From NCBI RefSeq assembly GCF_900094935.1, contig NZ_FMBA01000016.1, forward strand, positions 1-49,858: 49,858 bases of DNA, read 5' to 3'. Under the pieces are notes generated by a model that worked only from the letters and a program-made list of their open reading frames with translations, was not told the DNA's origin and ran no database searches. Made by a program: the position numbers and the translations under genes. Position 1 is the first letter of the stretch, and every line of letters starts with the position of its first letter. The DNA comes from Gilliamella intestini (GTDB lineage Bacteria; Pseudomonadota; Gammaproteobacteria; Enterobacterales; Orbaceae). This document shows, one piece after another, positions 26,033-49,858 of this stretch.

Positions 26033-26210
26033 AGAAATTACTGTAATAAATATCCATAAAAAACAAAATTAACGTCCTATCACAGACACGCGATAAGGGC
26101 TGATACCAAAGATTTGCTTTTACTTAAAAATCAAACGAAGCAGCAAATTAGAAAATATTATTAATGTATTTATATGATTTTTTTAATATTTATACATAAA
26201 CGTGGTGCAC

Positions 26211-26228
26211 TCCTGAAAGTTTTTGACA
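26211..26228. repeat. 18-bp element end shared with the lac/gal upstream element
   Basis: TCCTGAAAGTTTTTGACA is the exact reverse complement of 44966-44983 and differs by one base from 45163-45180. In this copy the element would lie to the left, so it marks a separate decayed insertion rather than the end of the transposase fragment to the right. Confidence 0.5.
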
Positions 26229-26315
26229 AAAAATTCTACTGTCTTTATTTGTTTAGATATACTGCGTAATAACCATCATATCAATCAACAATTCAACAAA
26301 TCCTCCTTGCCATAA

Positions 26316-39209: not shown

Positions 39210-40208
39210 TTAATTTATAAAAAATTGGTAAGCAGTGTGATGTTCATATATTTGTTTTGGTTGTAAAAAGCAGCTTGGTTGTGGCCAGTCTGGGTGATTA
39301 GGGCTGTCCGGTAAAAATTGGCTTTCTAATGCTATGCCAGCAAAATTTCCATATTCACTATTATTCCGGTTTGGTGTATGTTGTAAAAAGTTACCTGTAT
39401 AAATCTGTAATGAAGGTTTGGTTGTAGTAACATTCATTGTTACTTTTTTATCAGATGAAATGAGCTGAGCGGCTATAGCTTGATTTTTATCCAATAAATA
39501 AGCGTGATCGTAACCGCTAGTAATTTGTCGATCAAGGCTTGCTAATAATCTGTCAGATATTAGCCTTGGTTTACGCAAATCCATATCATTTTGGGTAACA
39601 CAAACCAAATCATTACTCGCAATACCATTGCTATCAACAGGTAGGTATAAGTTGGCATTAACTTGCAAGGAGTGATTAAGGATATCTTTGCTAGTTTCTC
39701 CATCCAGATTAAAGTAAGCATGATTGGTTAAGTTAACTGGCGTTGTTTTGGTTGTTGTTGCTTTAAATTTGATAACAACTTTATTGTCATCAGTCAATTG
39801 ATAGATAGCTTCAACATTAAGTTCACCGGGGAAACCTTGATCGCCATCGGGGGATGTTAAAGTAAATGTGATTTGTTGATCAGATTGAGATTGAATGTGC
39901 CATAGTTGTTTATCAAAACCTAACTTGCCTCCATGTAACTGGTTTACACCTTGATTAGCCACAAGTGGGTAGTGTCTATTGTCAATATCAATTGTCGCAT
40001 TGGCAATACGGTTAGCGTATCGGCCAATTGTAGCACCTAAATAAGCATCTTGCTTTTCATATTGTTCGAAAGTTTGGCAACCCAGTAATACTTCACGGTT
40101 TTGTCCATCAACAGGCAATATACAAGAGAGCCACGTGGCACCCCAGTTTGATAGTTTAATTTGCATACCGTGCTTGTTTGAAAGTGTGATTATCTGTTTT
40201 ATAGGCAT
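39210..40208 (-). CDS. galM: Aldose 1-epimerase (mutarotase) GalM
   Basis: A 332-residue mutarotase. [13 protein letters not shown] and [13 protein letters not shown] carry the first catalytic region. [12 protein letters not shown] contains the catalytic His, and a C-terminal [19 protein letters not shown] holds the catalytic Glu. It interconverts alpha- and beta-galactose, supplying the alpha form to GalK after lactose is split. It overlaps galK by 10 bases and is the last gene of the lac/gal operon. Confidence 0.95.
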
Positions 40209-41356
40209 ATCACGTTAGCTCCTTCACTTGGGTGGCAGATATAGAAGTCTTCTTTAATACCAAACTTTTTAACATAATTGTGGTTAACTATCGTTTTAAC
40301 ATCGTCAACTTTATCTTTTAACACTAAAGCGACCACACAACCACCAAAGCCTCCTCCAGTCATACGTACGCCACCTTGTTCACCAATAACATTGTGGATA
40401 ATTTCAACAAGGTAATCAATAGCAGGTACGGTAATTTCGAAATCATCGCGCATGGAATTATGGCTTTGTGCCATTAGATTTGATAATAATTTATAATCAC
40501 CATTTGTAAGGGCTTGGGCTGCTTTTATCGTCCGTTCGTTTTCAGTTATCACATGGCGAGCACGTTTATAAGCAATTGGATCGAGCGTACTTTCAATTTG
40601 TTTTAAATCATCTAACGATGCATCACGTAATGCTTTTACACCAAGCGCTTTAGCTGCGGCCTCGCATTGCTTGCGTCGGGTATTATATTCGCTATCAATT
40701 AATCCACGTTTGATATTTGAATTGATGATAACCACAGCAAAATCTTTAGGAATTGAGACAGGTTTAACTTCTAATGAACGACAGTCAATTAACAATGCAT
40801 GTTGGCTTTGTCCAAGAGCGGATATTAGTTGATCCATGATGCCACAATTGCAACCAACAAATTGGTTTTCAGCCTCTTGACCAATTAATGCTAATTTGGT
40901 GCCATCTAAAGCCAAGTTGTAAAGGACTTGGAACATTTTAGCTACCGCAACCTCTAGAGATGCTGATGAACTTAGTCCTGCCCCTTGAGGAACGTTTCCA
41001 CTAATAGCAAAATCGACGCCATGGATATTATTTGCATATTTTTTTAAGTGTTTTACCACTCCACGTATGTAGTTAGCCCACATATAATCCGAATGCTTTT
41101 CAATAGGAGAATCTAAAGAAAATTCATCTTGTTGATTATCGTAATCAACCGCAATAACTCGAATAAGATTATCTGAACGTTTGTGACAACTTATTATCGT
41201 TTGATAATTGATAGCACAAGGTAAAACAAAACCATCATTATAATCGGTATGCTCGCCAATCAAATTTACACGACCGGGGGCTTGTATAAGTGTATCGGGT
41301 TTATAGTCAAATTTAGATTCAAATGCTTGTGTAGTTGCTTTGATTAATGCGTTCAT
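40199..41356 (-). CDS. galK: Galactokinase GalK
   Basis: A 385-residue GHMP kinase. [18 protein letters not shown] (26-42) is the galactokinase signature, [18 protein letters not shown] is the ATP-binding motif, and [13 protein letters not shown] is the third GHMP motif. It phosphorylates alpha-galactose to galactose-1-phosphate, the first committed Leloir step. The ATG is 1 base after the galT stop. Confidence 0.98.
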
Positions 41357-42406
41357 CTATTTATCCTTTTTGTCTTTATAATGCACATCACTAACGTTAC
41401 GTAATCTTTCAGCTGCTTGCTCTGGGGTTAAATCACGTTGTACTTCGGCTAACATTTCGTAACCTACCATAAATTTTTTTACTGTGGCGGAACGTAATAA
41501 AGGGGGATAAAAATGTGCATGTACTTGCCAATAATCATTTTTATCTTGTATAAATGGCGCACCATGCCAGCCCATAGAGTATGGGAAAGAACAATGAAAT
41601 AAATTATCATAGCGACTCGTTAATTTTTTGAGCGCAATAGCTAAATCACTTTGTTGTTCGTCATTTAATTGGGTTAATTGTGGAATGTGAATTTTTGGTA
41701 ATAATAAGGTTTCAAATGGCCATATTGCCCAAAAAGGAACAACGGCTAGCCAATACTTAGTTTCTACAACGATTCGTTCACGATTAATAAGTTCCTTTTG
41801 GGCATAATCAACCAATAAATTGCGATGATACTTTTCAAAGTAATTACGCATATTTAGATCTTCGCACACAATTTCATTCGGTAAAAAACTATTAGCCCAA
41901 ACTTGCCCATGTGGGTGAGGGTTAGAGCACCCCATTGCTGATCCTTTGTTTTCAAACACTTGTACCCAAGGATAGTTTTCGCCTAACTCTTGCTGCTGTT
42001 TTATCCAAGTTTTAATTACTCCTTCAATTGCTGGTAAATCAAGTTCAGGTAATGTTTTGCTGTGATCGGGTGAAAAACAGATAACTCGACTAGTACCTTT
42101 TGCACTTTGCATTTGGAATAATGGATCGGTGTTTTTGGGAGATTCTGGTGTATTTTCCATTAGTGCTGCAAAATCATTTGTAAAAACAAATGTTCCCTTA
42201 TAATTAGGGTTGATATCTCCAGTTACCCGTTTATTACCTGAGCACAAAAAACAAGTTGGTTCGTAACTTGGTTTTTGTTCTTCGTTTAATACTTCTTGTT
42301 GTCCTTGCCATGGGCGTTTTGCCCTATGAGGTGAAACAAGCACCCATTGGTTGGTCAATGGATTATAACGACGATGAGGATGGTCAACTGGGTTAAAAAT
42401 ATCCAT
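41357..42406 (-). CDS. galT: Galactose-1-phosphate uridylyltransferase GalT
   Basis: A 349-residue HIT-superfamily transferase. [12 protein letters not shown] carries the catalytic HPH motif, FLCSGNKRV contributes zinc-binding Cys residues, and [10 protein letters not shown] is a later His site. It swaps UMP between UDP-glucose and galactose-1-phosphate, yielding UDP-galactose and glucose-1-phosphate. It is 44 bases after galE. Confidence 0.98.
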
Positions 42407-42450: not shown

Positions 42451-43467
42451 TTAATCAGGATAGCCTTGAGGGTTATTTGATTGCCAATTCCATGAATCTT
42501 TTACCATGTCATCAAGCGTGAGTTTGGTTTTCCAACCTAATATTTGCTCAGCTTTATTCGCATCAGCCCAGAATGCTGGTAAATCACCTGCTCGTCTTGG
42601 AGCAAAATGCCAATTAAGAGGTCTTCCTGATGCTTTTTCAAAAGCTTTAATGACTTGTAATACGCTATAACCAACACCTGAGCCTAAATTGTAAATATGC
42701 ACACCAGCTTTATTTTGATCGGTTTTGAGTGCTGCGATATGCCCATCGGCCAAATCAACAACATGGATAAAGTCACGAACACAAGTGCCATCCGTTGTTG
42801 GATAATCATTACCAAAAACAGCTAATGATTCACGTTTGCCAACAGCAACTTGGGTAATATAAGGCATAAGATTATTAGGAATACCAAGTGGATCTTCACC
42901 CATTAATCCGCTTGGGTGTGCGCCAACAGGGTTAAAATAGCGTAGTAAAGTCAGTGACCAATCAGGTTCAGCAACGGCCAAATCCATAATACATTGCTCT
43001 ACCATTAATTTACTTTTTCCATATGGGCTAGTTGGTAAACCTTGTGGTAATGTTTCAACATAAGGTACAGGAGCAAGTTCGCCATAAACAGTGGCCGACG
43101 AACTAAATACTAACTGTTTAACGCCTGCAGCTCGCATTGCCTTCATTAGTACAATACTGCCGTAAACATTATTTTCATAATATTCTAGCGGTTTGTGAAC
43201 CGATTCACCGACTGCTTTTAAACCAGCAAAATGGATCACCGCTTTAATGTCATGTTCTGAAAAAATCTTAGTTAATAGTTTTTCATCGCATACATCGCCT
43301 TGATAAAAAATGACAGATTGCCCAGTAATTTTTTGCATTCTATCTAGTACTGATGCTTTGCTGTTAAACAAATTATCAATAATAATTGGTGTGTAGCCAG
43401 ATTTAATTAGTTGAACACATGTGTGACTTCCTATATATCCACAACCACCAGTTACTAATATTTTCAT
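42451..43467 (-). CDS. galE: UDP-glucose 4-epimerase GalE
   Basis: A 338-residue short-chain dehydrogenase-type epimerase. The NAD-binding GGCGYIGSH is at the N-terminus and the catalytic SSSATVYG with YGKSK near residue 150. It interconverts UDP-galactose and UDP-glucose. The gene follows the lacY-like permease by 45 bases. Confidence 0.98.
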
Positions 43468-43512: not shown

Positions 43513-44787
43513 CTAATCTTCAGACCCTTCACTGCTTTTATGTTTCCACAGATCCCATGGTCCACGCCCTGATAATGTAAAGGATGAAATAAGCGTAAAA
43601 CTAAATGCGATCAAGCCAAGGATTAAATATGCTCCTTCGAAACCTATTTTAACATACATTAACCCCGCAAAAGTGGACATAAACATGATAGATAATTGTT
43701 TTGCAAAACAAAATGCAATTAAGTAAACAGTTGCCGATAAGCGAATAGGAAAGTGTTTAGTAATATATTTAAAAGCGCCAACAAGTAATAAAGGTGCTTC
43801 GAACATATGCAAAGTTTTGAGTATAACAACTTCAACTGCTGAGCTAGCAAATGCCGATCCCGTAATACGAATAGACATAATAGTGCCGGCAACAAGTAAT
43901 GTATTTTTACTGCCAATTTTCTTTACAATCAGTGGTGCAAAAAACATAACAGTGGCATTTAAAAACTCACCAAGCGTTGTGACATAACCGAATGCTTCTC
44001 GTCCGGCTTGTTCACTAGAAAAAAATGAGGTAAAAAAGTTAGCAAATTGTTGATCAAATACATCATAAGTACAGGCAACGCCAATAATGTATAGCATAAA
44101 AAACCAGGTTTTGCGCATTTTTAGCAAATTAATGGCAAGTTTTAAATTAAATGGTTCAGGTTTATTTAGCCCCATTTGCTCAACAACTTCAGTCGTTGTT
44201 GTTTTTGCTGGATCAGCAATTTTGACTAAAAATAAAAGAATCAATGCAAATCCTGAACATAACCAGTAAACAGCATTGACATCTTTAGAAATCATAATTC
44301 CCACAAATGAAGCACAAATTGCCCAACCAAAACAACCAAACATACGGCTACGACCAAATTCAAATCCACTGCGCCGACTGATTTTTTCAACAAGCGCTTC
44401 AATGGCTGGTGCTCCACCACTAAAAACCATACCAAGATAAAGCCCTCCAACAATTGCGCCCAAGGTAACATTAAATTGAAGTAATGGTCCCAAAACGAAG
44501 ATAAAAAATGGACCAAATAGTACAAGAAGTAGTGTGATAGCCCAAAGAAGATGTTTTTTTAATCCTAATTTGTCAGAAATCAATCCAAACAAAGGTTGAA
44601 AAAAAAGCGCAAATAATGAAATAAATGAAAAAACGTATCCAGTATTTGCTTCATCTAGACCATTCATTTTTAACCAAACAGGAAAAAATGGGAAATATGC
44701 GCCCATAATAAAAAAGTAAAGAAAGAAGTAGATACTAAATACCCAATAATTCTTATTACTTAGTGATAATTTTGTTTTTTGATTCAT
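43513..44787 (-). CDS. lacY: Lactose permease LacY family (H+/galactoside symporter)
   Basis: A 424-residue, 12-helix major facilitator protein clearly related to E. coli Lac[16 protein letters not shown] at the start and [17 protein letters not shown] in the middle. All residues known to be essential in E. coli LacY are seen at equivalent places: E130 (E126), R148 (R144), E274 (E269), R307 (R302), H327 (H322) and E330 (E325). It should import lactose or a related galactoside with a proton. It heads the operon with galETKM and has AAAGGAAG as ribosome binding site. No beta-galactosidase gene is in the window, so the substrate must be split by an enzyme encoded elsewhere, or the permease serves another galactoside. 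Confidence 0.93.
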
Positions 44788-44831
44788 AATGAACTTCCTT
44801 TGTTAGGCTTTAAATGATTAACACACCCATT

Positions 44832-44847
44832 TAGAAATCGATTACAT
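44832..44847 (-). promoter_or_regulatory. GalR/LacI-type operator O1, downstream of the promoter
   Basis: TAGAAATCGATTACAT matches the GalR/GalS consensus GTGNAANCGNTTNCAC at nearly all the fixed core positions (G3, A5, A6, C8, G9, T11, T12, C14, A15). Centred about 38 bases downstream of the predicted start and 99 bp from O2. Confidence 0.65.
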
Positions 44848-44883
44848 TTTTTTTAAGATTAGGAAAATTATTTGTTAAAAGAG

Positions 44884-44889
44884 ATAATA
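44884..44889 (-). promoter_or_regulatory. Candidate -10 of the lacY-gal promoter
   Basis: TATTAT on the minus strand. A start about 7 bases further on (near 44877) places the CRP site centre at about -41.5, the class II position. No good -35 is present, as expected for a CRP-dependent promoter. Confidence 0.5.
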
Positions 44890-44907
44890 ACATTAAAGAA
44901 GGTTGTA

Positions 44908-44929
44908 AAAAGTGATCTAGATAACATTT
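44908..44929 (-). promoter_or_regulatory. CRP (cAMP receptor protein) binding site
   Basis: AAAAGTGATCTAGATAACATTT agrees with the E. coli CRP consensus at 20 of 22 positions, including GTGAT in the left half and a one-base-altered right half. It should make the operon sensitive to glucose. Confidence 0.8.
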
Positions 44930-44930
44930 T

Positions 44931-44946
44931 ATGAAATCGTTTACAT
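44931..44946 (-). promoter_or_regulatory. GalR/LacI-type operator O2, upstream of the promoter
   Basis: ATGAAATCGTTTACAT is the best match of the three to GTGNAANCGNTTNCAC. It is one base from the CRP site and centred near -61, as galOE is in E. coli. Confidence 0.7.
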
Positions 44947-44965
44947 TAAGTGTTATAATTGATTC

Positions 44966-45182
44966 TGTCAAAAACTTTCAGGAAAGGTGTGTGTTTATGT
45001 ATAATCTTAATCTTTTTATGATAATAACCATCATGATTTATGAGTGGTTTACTTAAAAAGAAGATTTAGGTTAATTAATTAGAATAGATTTTAGCCAATA
45101 AAACGCAATCTTTCTTAAAATCGATTACATTTCGTGTTTGTTTTATACTGAAACGAATACCTTTCCTGAAAGTTTTTAACAA
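44966..45182. mobile_element. Small MITE-like element with 23-bp terminal inverted repeats
   Basis: The ends 44966-44988 (TGTCAAAAACTTTCAGGAAAG then GT at 44987) and 45160-45182 are inverted copies matching at 22 of 23 positions. The interior encodes no transposase. One end sequence also occurs at 26211-26228. Target duplications are not obvious. It could be a non-autonomous derivative of an insertion sequence. Confidence 0.5.
45115..45130 (-). promoter_or_regulatory. GalR/LacI-type operator O3, inside the small element
   Basis: TTAAAATCGATTACAT shares AAATCGATTACAT with O1 and lacks only the G of the left half-site. It lies 184 bp beyond O2 within the inverted-repeat element and could act as an auxiliary looping operator. 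Confidence 0.45.
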
Positions 45183-45263
45183 AATTTTTGTTATTATAAT
45201 CTTTGTTTGTTTATCGTTATTAGCTTATTCAATTTTAGGCGACATTGAATAATTTAACGATAA

Positions 45264-46427
45264 TTAGTTAATTTTGAAAGATTTTATTCGTTCCTCAAAA
45301 TCTGACCAACTATAATAACCCTCATTATTAATCGCTGCATTTTTTAGTTGAAGTTGATAATGCTGTGGTGGATTATCCGCATTCAGTACTTGTCCATTAT
45401 GGAGTTGTTCAAAGCTTTGATAAATATATTCAGCTTTAAAAAAGTATTCTCCGGTAGATAGGTGACGAAAACGTTGTAAAGCGACTTTTCCACCTATTGG
45501 TGTGCTTTCAAATTGCTTTGGTAGTTGATAAGTTTCAAACTCTAATGCCCCTAGCAATGATGCAATTGTACTATCGTGCCCTACAAGTAAGTTTACTGTA
45601 TTATCTTGTTGCATAAGATTGTCTATAGTATTGATGATGGGCGTAGCAGAATGTTTTGCCAGTGTTTTAGTGTGGCATATTAAATTAATATATTGATTAC
45701 GAAGCTGAACGATTTGTTGCCACTGGGCTAAGTCATTTATTCTTCCCCATGCAATATGTTCTTTAGGAAATGCTGAATAATATTGTAATAAAAAGGCATC
45801 AACCGCTGATGCGCCTATCGCTAGTGCGCCAAGTAATGCTGGCTCTTCATTTTTTTCCAGATGAAGCTTAAGCGGAATATCAGCTAATGGGCATTGGTGT
45901 TTAGCATATAATGTTGAATGTCGATAATCTAAAATATCAGATAAAACTTCATAAGCGGAAGCTAAATTTTTAAAAATGGACTCTACTTGATTGGTTTGTT
46001 CAATGTCATGTAATACTGCTTGTTTTAATTCTGGTGAATCATCTCTTAGGCTTGGATCAAAAATAGGATCCATCTTTTCGATTGGATATTTATGGTTAAT
46101 TGCAATATCATAACCTGCATAAGCACCGGCAATAATAAATTGTGCGGTTGCGACTGTTCTTTGTAGGCTATTAGCATAAACAAATATTTTTGGAGCAATT
46201 ACCGAAAGTTTTATGTTATGGGTTTCAAGCCATTGTGATAAATAGTGTCCAAAATAGACTTCTAAAGCACCCCCTCGGGTTGTTAAATAACCATAAGGGT
46301 GTTGCCATTTAGGCCATTTAAATGGTGTTGCTTGTTCAAGAAGTTCAAGTGTATTTTGTAACGGTGTGCGAATACCATGACGACTTAATATAACAATTTT
46401 ATCTAATTGGTAGTGCTTGTTTATCAT
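45264..46427 (-). CDS. Glucose-1-phosphatase-like histidine acid phosphatase without signal peptide
   Basis: A 387-residue protein of the histidine acid phosphatase family, most like E. coli Agp: RHGIRTPL at 16-23 (catalytic His), then KWPKWQHPYGYLTTRGGALEVYFGHYL, YANSLQRTVATAQFI and LLVGHDSTIASLLGAL (proton donor Asp). E. coli Agp is periplasmic and has a cleaved signal and disulfides. Here the protein begins MINKHYQLDK directly before the catalytic motif, and an upstream in-frame stop shows there is no hidden signal. Most Cys residues are also missing. It is therefore predicted to be cytoplasmic. It lies upstream of the lac/gal operon on the same strand. Confidence 0.8.
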   Translation of the reverse strand: MINKHYQLDKIVILSRHGIRTPLQNTLELLEQATPFKWPKWQHPYGYLTTRGGALEVYFGHYLSQWLETHNIKLSVIAPKIFVYANSLQRTVATAQFIIAGAYAGYDIAINHKYPIEKMDPIFDPSLRDDSPELKQAVLHDIEQTNQVESIFKNLASAYEVLSDILDYRHSTLYAKHQCPLADIPLKLHLEKNEEPALLGALAIGASAVDAFLLQYYSAFPKEHIAWGRINDLAQWQQIVQLRNQYINLICHTKTLAKHSATPIINTIDNLMQQDNTVNLLVGHDSTIASLLGALEFETYQLPKQFESTPIGGKVALQRFRHLSTGEYFFKAEYIYQSFEQLHNGQVLNADNPPQHYQLQLKNAAINNEGYYSWSDFEERIKSFKIN

Positions 46428-49286: not shown

Positions 49287-49858
49287 GAGCGTGTTGATCT
49301 TCCGTGATTATTTTTTAGACGGCATGATGTGAGTTATAATAATTCTGCAAAAAACAACCATAACTCGATTCATCATGCCAAGAACAATGCTAACAGATAA
49401 ACGGTGGGAAAAGCTACTACAAATAATGAAAAATACCGGCCGAGTTTATAATAAATCCGAGCATCGGATGACGTTTGAAGGGATCCTTTTCCGAATGAGA
49501 ACCGGCGGTATTGCTTGGCGAGATTTGCCAAAAGAGTTCGGTGAATGGAGCACCGTCTATAGACGATTTAATTTGTGGTCTAAAAAAGGAATATTAGTTG
49601 ATATTTTCAAACATTTATCACAACTAGCGGATTTTGAATGGGTGTTCCTAGATGGCTCAATTATCAGGGCTCATCAACACAGTACAGGCGCTGCAACGGA
49701 GCATTGTGAGCAAATAGGTCAGAGCTGTGGTGGTCATTCAACTAAAATTCATCTTGCGGTTGATAGTGGTGGTTTGCCTATTTGTTTTGAGCTTTCTGAA
49801 GGACAACGACATGATATCACTTATGCAGAAAACCTAGTTGAAAAGCTCGATGAAGTCA
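49287..49858 (+). mobile_element. IS5-family insertion sequence, left part
   Basis: A probable left end begins GAGCGTGTTGATCTTCC at 49287, like the terminal repeats of many IS5-group elements, and is preceded by TTA, a possible target site. The transposase frame starts 88 bases later. The right end lies outside the window. Confidence 0.65.
49375..49858 (+). CDS. IS5-family transposase, partial (runs off right edge)
   Basis: 161 codons are open to the window edge. MPRTMLTDKRWEKLLQIM opens an IS5-type N-terminal domain, followed by FEGILFRMRTGGIAWRDLPKEFG and VYRRFNLWSKKG, the conserved helix-turn-helix part. The catalytic core starts at FLDGSIIRAHQHSTG with the first Asp, then KIHLAVDSGGLPICFELSEGQRHD. 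G+C is clearly higher than in the neighbouring genes. Such elements are often split into two overlapping frames joined by frameshift; no break is visible in this part, so it may be intact. Confidence 0.88.
   Translation, partial: MPRTMLTDKRWEKLLQIMKNTGRVYNKSEHRMTFEGILFRMRTGGIAWRDLPKEFGEWSTVYRRFNLWSKKGILVDIFKHLSQLADFEWVFLDGSIIRAHQHSTGAATEHCEQIGQSCGGHSTKIHLAVDSGGLPICFELSEGQRHDITYAENLVEKLDEV

Follow-up and report, generated by a model that had tools for sequence, protein, structure and literature searches.

A putative GalR-repressed and CRP-activated promoter of the lacY-galETKM operon in Gilliamella intestini, with related promoters across the Orbaceae

The lacY-galETKM operon of Gilliamella intestini is very probably driven by a class II promoter that is activated by CRP and repressed by GalR, and this promoter appears to be one of at least three—those of lacY-gal, lacZ and the α-galactosidase gene—that make up a galactoside regulon lacking LacI. 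The window, i.e. the whole stretch of DNA that was analysed (49,858 nucleotides), contains the operon on its minus strand. In the proposed mechanism, cAMP-CRP at -41.5 would bring in RNA polymerase at a promoter that has an extended -10 but no -35 element, and GalR dimers would repress from the operators OE (-61.5), OI (+38.5) and O3 (about -245), probably by looping OE to either OI or O3. Free galactose would release GalR from the operators; LacY would import galactosides, LacZ or the α-galactosidase would split them, and the galactose thus freed would induce the whole set. The choice of galactose as the inducer follows the orthology of the regulator to E. coli GalR; binding of GalR and CRP and the start site are likewise predicted, and looping is postulated from the positions of the sites.

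Table 1 Features of the lacY-gal locus in the window (site centres relative to the predicted start)
Feature	Coordinates	Strand	Sequence	Remark
lacY	43513..44787	-		LacY-family galactoside/H+ symporter, heads the operon
galE	42451..43467	-
galT	41357..42406	-
galK	40199..41356	-
galM	39210..40208	-
Downstream operator OI	44832..44847	-	ATGTAATCGATTTCTA	centre +38.5; in the lacY 5' UTR
Predicted +1	44877	-		from -10 and CRP spacing
Extended -10	44884..44892	-	TGTTATTAT	TG precedes the TATTAT hexamer 44889-44884
CRP site	44908..44929	-	AAATGTTATCTAGATCACTTTT	centre -41.5
GalR-type operator OE	44931..44946	-	ATGTAAACGATTTCAT	centre -61.5
Far-upstream operator O3	45115..45130	-	ATGTAATCGATTTTAA	centre about -245

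Architecture of the lacY-gal promoter

The coordinates of the operon genes and promoter elements are collected in Table 1. The CRP 22-mer agrees at 20 of its 22 positions with the CRP consensus. The position of a -35 hexamer reads CTTTTT and matches at only one of six bases, so that the promoter looks activator-dependent; a poor -35 element is to be expected where a promoter depends on CRP at -41.5. The start codon of lacY lies at about +91 relative to the predicted start. At the place of a P2 -10 element, 5 bp upstream, the hexamer is AATGTT (3/6, with a range of 2-4/6 over the 24 genomes described below), the mean match over these genomes being 3.0/6 for P2 versus 4.6/6 for P1. The lacY promoter, having no -35, is not among the hits of a sigma-70 scan, the top hit of which, a plus-strand TATAAT at 44954-44959, was discarded as within chance (three found, 4.8 expected); an Rfam search of 44700-45400 gave no matches.

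Concerning the operators, OE fits the GalR consensus GTGNAANCGNTTNCAC, as stated in the accessible part of PMC5110547, at all positions except the two outermost ones (A/T for G/C), and OI and O3 have one or two more misfits than OE; the operator sites of the window score 13-23 bits. OE and OI are 99 bp apart, and O3 is found 184 bp upstream of OE. The first-pass annotation had given the CRP site, the TATTAT -10, both proximal operators and their spacing with the right coordinates, and the gal-type layout that it described stands, with CRP at -41.5 and operators at -61.5 and +38.5 relative to the predicted +1 at 44877; it had, however, recognised two operators only, O3 being the third.

The closest known counterpart is the P1 promoter of E. 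coli galETKM, for which the available portions of PMC5110547 and PMC4693257 give OE at -60.5, OI at +53.5 and CRP at -41.5, the former also describing a loop between sites 113 bp apart. Both promoters have CRP at -41.5, an operator near -61, a downstream operator, an extended -10 and orthologous GalR and CRP proteins. They differ in that lacY is the first gene here, the operators are separated by 99 instead of 113 bp, OI is situated in the 5' UTR at +38.5 and not inside galE at +53.5, a third operator is present at about -245, and the P2 -10 position is poorly kept.

Conservation of the sites and chance occurrence

An orthologous lacY (at least 80% identity) was found in 24 of 35 genomes of the genus, which constitute the lacY+ set; it should be kept in mind that these genomes are related and that the counts are not independent events. 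The operator pattern by itself is weak evidence, whereas its conservation and position are strong evidence. With up to one mismatch allowed, the window contains four strand-hits versus 1.35 expected, 8 of 100 shuffles being as good, and in 11 of 12 genomes the genome-wide counts at the same tolerance are not above those of a reversed-pattern control (71 versus 77 in G000, the genome of the window; 80 versus 79 in G029). Since the motif is thus common by chance, conservation was relied on instead.

Over the 24 genomes, the commonest base reaches a mean of 0.91 in the operator, 0.95 in the CRP site and 0.88 in the extended -10, versus 0.49-0.62 in the neighbouring columns. OE and the complete operator-CRP module are present in all 24 genomes, with a centre spacing of 20 bp in 22 of them and 19 bp in two (OE at -61.5 versus -60.5). 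A pattern with fixed operator-CRP spacing matches 22 of 44 genomes of the family; the lacY+ genomes it misses, G027 and G032, have a gap one base shorter. In 24/24 genomes the distance between the CRP centre and a TGnTAnnAT -10 is exactly 29.5 bp, in a search that allowed offsets of -4 to +4 at a small penalty, and the CRP centre is at -41.5 relative to the predicted -10 in every one of them. The first-pass annotation had let its reading depend on conservation of the CRP and operator sites in relatives, and the CRP site and OE are conserved throughout the lacY+ set.

Exact matches to the operator pattern were searched for in 12 genomes and, among the matches listed, those located at the promoters of lacY-gal, lacZ and the α-galactosidase gene amount to four of five in G011, four of six in G002 and both in G026. 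The other exact matches (one in G011, two in G002) fall within coding sequence or within a CRISPR-like array and were set aside as chance. The array, recognised by eye at L243:3435-3520 in G002, has an exact operator motif between its repeats, probably by chance.

GalR and the remaining LacI-family proteins

The presence of a GalR orthologue and the lack of a recognised LacI support GalR as a fitting regulator of the lacY-gal promoter. The genome encodes a CRP orthologue (89% identity to E. coli CRP) and eight LacI-family proteins, none of which reaches the cut-off of the LacI model (best 182 versus 340 bits). The GalR orthologue shares 66% identity with E. coli GalR, versus 28% with LacI, and it scores 547 bits versus the cut-off of 557 of the curated NCBIfam GalR model. 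Its gene is positioned between a GH36 α-galactosidase gene and, past a gene for a LamB-like porin, lacZ.

With eight proteins of the family in the genome, and with a CG-centred palindrome common to LacI-family operators according to the available part of PMC4052901, a different repressor, e.g. that encoded next to another LacY-like permease (L062), might bind the operators in place of GalR. We consider this very unlikely: the recognition segment VSVATVSRVINN of the GalR orthologue is unchanged from E. coli GalR, the gene lies between two target genes, three of the other family members are named by model as TreR, Cra and GntR, and the remaining four match no named model above its cut-off. GalR also accompanies lacY in 23 of 24 lacY+ genomes, the exception being G014 (74% complete), yet it is retained in five lacY-less genomes as well (G003, G006, G025, G030 and G031, the G025 copy with stops).

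Auxiliary operators and possible looping

Upstream operators and OI were scored with a matrix built from OE sites only. An upstream operator of at least 12 bits is present in 22 of the 24 intergenic regions, versus 0.08-0.22 expected from shuffles, and was not seen in those of G034 and G010; it lies 173-206 bp above OE in 20 of the 22, at 129 bp in G021 and at 22 bp in G029. OI scores at least 9 bits in 15/24 genomes (0.085 expected from shuffles) and at least 12 bits in 8/24, being absent or weaker than 9 bits in nine.

That OI and O3 act as auxiliary sites, raising the local GalR concentration or binding it independently without a DNA loop, is a distinct possibility, albeit one we judge somewhat less likely than a loop. 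Such a role would agree with the nine genomes with OI below 9 bits and with the loop-interface residue 230 of E. coli GalR (E), which is not conserved (S in 21 of 26 sequences); of the other interface residues, position 258 is D in 23/26 and E in 3/26, and position 325 has K in place of R in 26/26. The 10.5-bp phasing of the O3-OE distances, although suggestive, is also weak when each distance is counted only once: p is 0.0004 over the 21 values and 0.023 over the 14 distinct ones, with kinship ignored. Against a role without looping, O3 stays 173-206 bp from OE in 20 of 24 genomes. The galP gene of E. coli, a lone permease gene, offers a parallel. Its distant operator pair, 182 bp apart according to the accessible part of PMC5110547, resembles O3-OE. 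Looping is plausible, since the E. coli gal promoter forms an HU-assisted GalR loop over 113 bp and the galP sites are 182 bp apart, and a loop is the reading we prefer. With its three operators, the promoter allows GalR looping to be probed at spacings absent from E. coli gal.

The operon as a unit and its partial losses

Beyond the 476-bp intergenic region 5' of lacY lies a gene resembling that of glucose-1-phosphatase, whose best NCBIfam score of 402 is under the cut-off of 425. LacY is 62% identical to E. coli LacY, and lacY is 97% identical to that of the closest named relatives of the genome, which are Gilliamella isolates. The E. coli residue is retained at 14 of the 15 functional LacY positions checked, N119 being the exception, and E126, R144, E269, R302, H322 and E325 are all present.

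It is unlikely that lacY and galETKM are separate units, with galE transcribed from an internal promoter and the switch controlling lacY only. The successive intergenic distances are 45, 44 and 0 bp, galK and galM overlap by 10 bp, the order lacY-galE-galT-galK-galM is found in 15 of 16 Orbaceae loci (the remaining one without galE), and some 120 bp around the lacY end contain no operator in 24/24 genomes (best score 3.1). In favour of separate units, galE is kept in all six lacY-less genomes examined, in which no more than fragments of lacY and at most a fragment of galK remain, so that galE can be expressed without the lacY promoter. A single unit is, nevertheless, the arrangement that these data favour, and the earlier proposal of import and Leloir genes behind one promoter is supported.

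The lacY-less genomes of the genus number 11, and the galE region was examined in six of them (L068-L073: G006, G025, G033, G017, G022 and G030). Fragments of lacY remain in five; galK was not found in five and is a fragment in G017, the stretch from G006 reaching only 1.3 kb beyond galT. Fragments of galT were observed at two of these loci, G033 and G017. The whole interval between the phosphatase gene and galE contains no operator above 5.2 bits in any of the six; degraded operator-like sites with two mismatches occur in three (G006, G025 and G017) and CRP-like sites in two (G017 with two mismatches, G030 with three), all of them possibly relics. G010, which branches early, has the start of lacY some 290 bp past the predicted +1, and its galE is outside the operon.

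The wider galactoside regulon

The wider survey covered 22 galR- or gal-bearing loci of enough length, taken from 29 family genomes with GalR. Of the 16 loci with lacZ, 14 (not those of G010 and G031) have an operator-CRP module in front of it, with an OE-CRP spacing of 19-20 bp; the α-galactosidase gene is preceded by one in 15 of 16 loci (not in G010), with a spacing of 20-22 bp. At none of 21 loci did the 330 bp 5' of galR contain an operator. Galactoside uptake and use therefore look like one regulon in Gilliamella-type bee-gut bacteria; the regulon of import and Leloir genes proposed by the first-pass annotation holds in that respect, but it extends further, lacZ and the α-galactosidase gene carrying the same module. 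As an α-galactosidase belongs to the same regulon, sugars of the melibiose or raffinose type are as plausible as lactose as substrates of LacY. In G006 (L145:6601-6616) and G025 (L153:1546-1561), in neither of which lacZ was found, an operator lies 270-285 bp 5' of the LamB-like porin gene, and the porin may be a GalR target.

In the genome studied, lacY and lacZ occupy different contigs, and in the single-contig genome G011 they are about 200 kb apart. A broader and more tentative reading, to which we give somewhat less than an even chance, is that in the Orbaceae the lac operon has been dissolved into a GalR-CRP regulon: lacY would lead the gal genes, lacZ and the α-galactosidase gene would flank galR, a three-operator GalR loop would act on lacY-gal with its far arm shifting in approximately helical-repeat steps, and galactose would be the common inducer for α- and β-galactosides. 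In that case, lactose or raffinose could induce only after some basal hydrolysis, because the common inducer is the product.

Origin of the arrangement

Among the best 80 of 372 LacY relatives from named genomes, a galT gene less than 7 kb away, checked where the contig extends that far, accompanies 16, and all of these are Orbaceae; the other 64 have no galT nearby, 59 of them having lacZ nearby. In G063, representing another Orbaceae genus, lacY adjoins lacZ and galR, galETKM is elsewhere, and operator and CRP sites are present at lacY, lacZ and galE alike, the promoter of lacY showing an operator-CRP-operator layout. Since lacY of this genome already has such a promoter apart from galETKM, lacY was probably under a GalR-type switch before it joined galETKM, as judged from this one outgroup genome. 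The first-pass annotation, which had lactose permease placed under a gal-type switch, thus probably had the order of events wrong. Scored against the two G063 promoters, the window-type promoters of all 24 genomes come closer to that of lacY than to that of galE, a signal that comes mostly from the binding sites and the distances between them; outside these sites, the promoter DNA fits lacY better in 14, equally in two and worse in eight, and does not discriminate descent from the lacY or the galE promoter.

Relation to known systems

Like E. coli lacZYA with LacI, the Gilliamella system contains relatives of LacY and LacZ and appears CRP-dependent, but no LacI is recognised, the operators are of the GalR type, CRP is at -41.5, and lacY and lacZ are separate. 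In the accessible part of PMC2996990, GalR sites are predicted for the omp-lacZ-galTK-galP-galE operon of Shewanella baltica, which is likewise a gammaproteobacterial GalR regulon uniting galactoside and galactose genes, but its permease and outer-membrane transporter are different ones and lacZ is within the operon. GalR-controlled lac/gal operons have thus already been predicted there. The open-access literature searched contained no paper on Gilliamella with GalR and none on an Orbaceae galactose operon.

The genus would offer a natural case of lac permease under GalR and not LacI, with repeated natural losses for comparison, and the regulon suggests a way in which Gilliamella of the bee gut could sense galactosides. 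According to the available part of PMC12198164, α-galactosides of Camellia oleifera nectar are harmful to bees and G. apicola is commoner in bees long kept in Camellia oleifera forests; the enzyme family reported there as enriched is GH4, versus the GH36 α-galactosidase here.

Dispersed repeat and other features of the window

O3 is surrounded by an inverted repeat (44962-45004 and 45143-45185) belonging to a dispersed, possibly MITE- or REP-like family, a further copy of which is at 26191-26229. Its core CTGAAASTTTTTRACA has 79 exact hits in G000, versus 0 for a control pattern, and is absent from three of 14 genomes (G026, G029 and G063); being dispersed genome-wide and missing from these three, it was ruled out as a gal-specific regulatory site. 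Three copies spaced 188 bp were seen in G011 and G002, and in several relatives one copy directly adjoins a gal operator. By eye, a plus-strand ORF of 19 codons at 44997-45056 follows AGGAAAGG, beginning in a repeat arm and exiting it, and another ORF, at 49375-49857, runs off the contig end and resembles an IS transposase.
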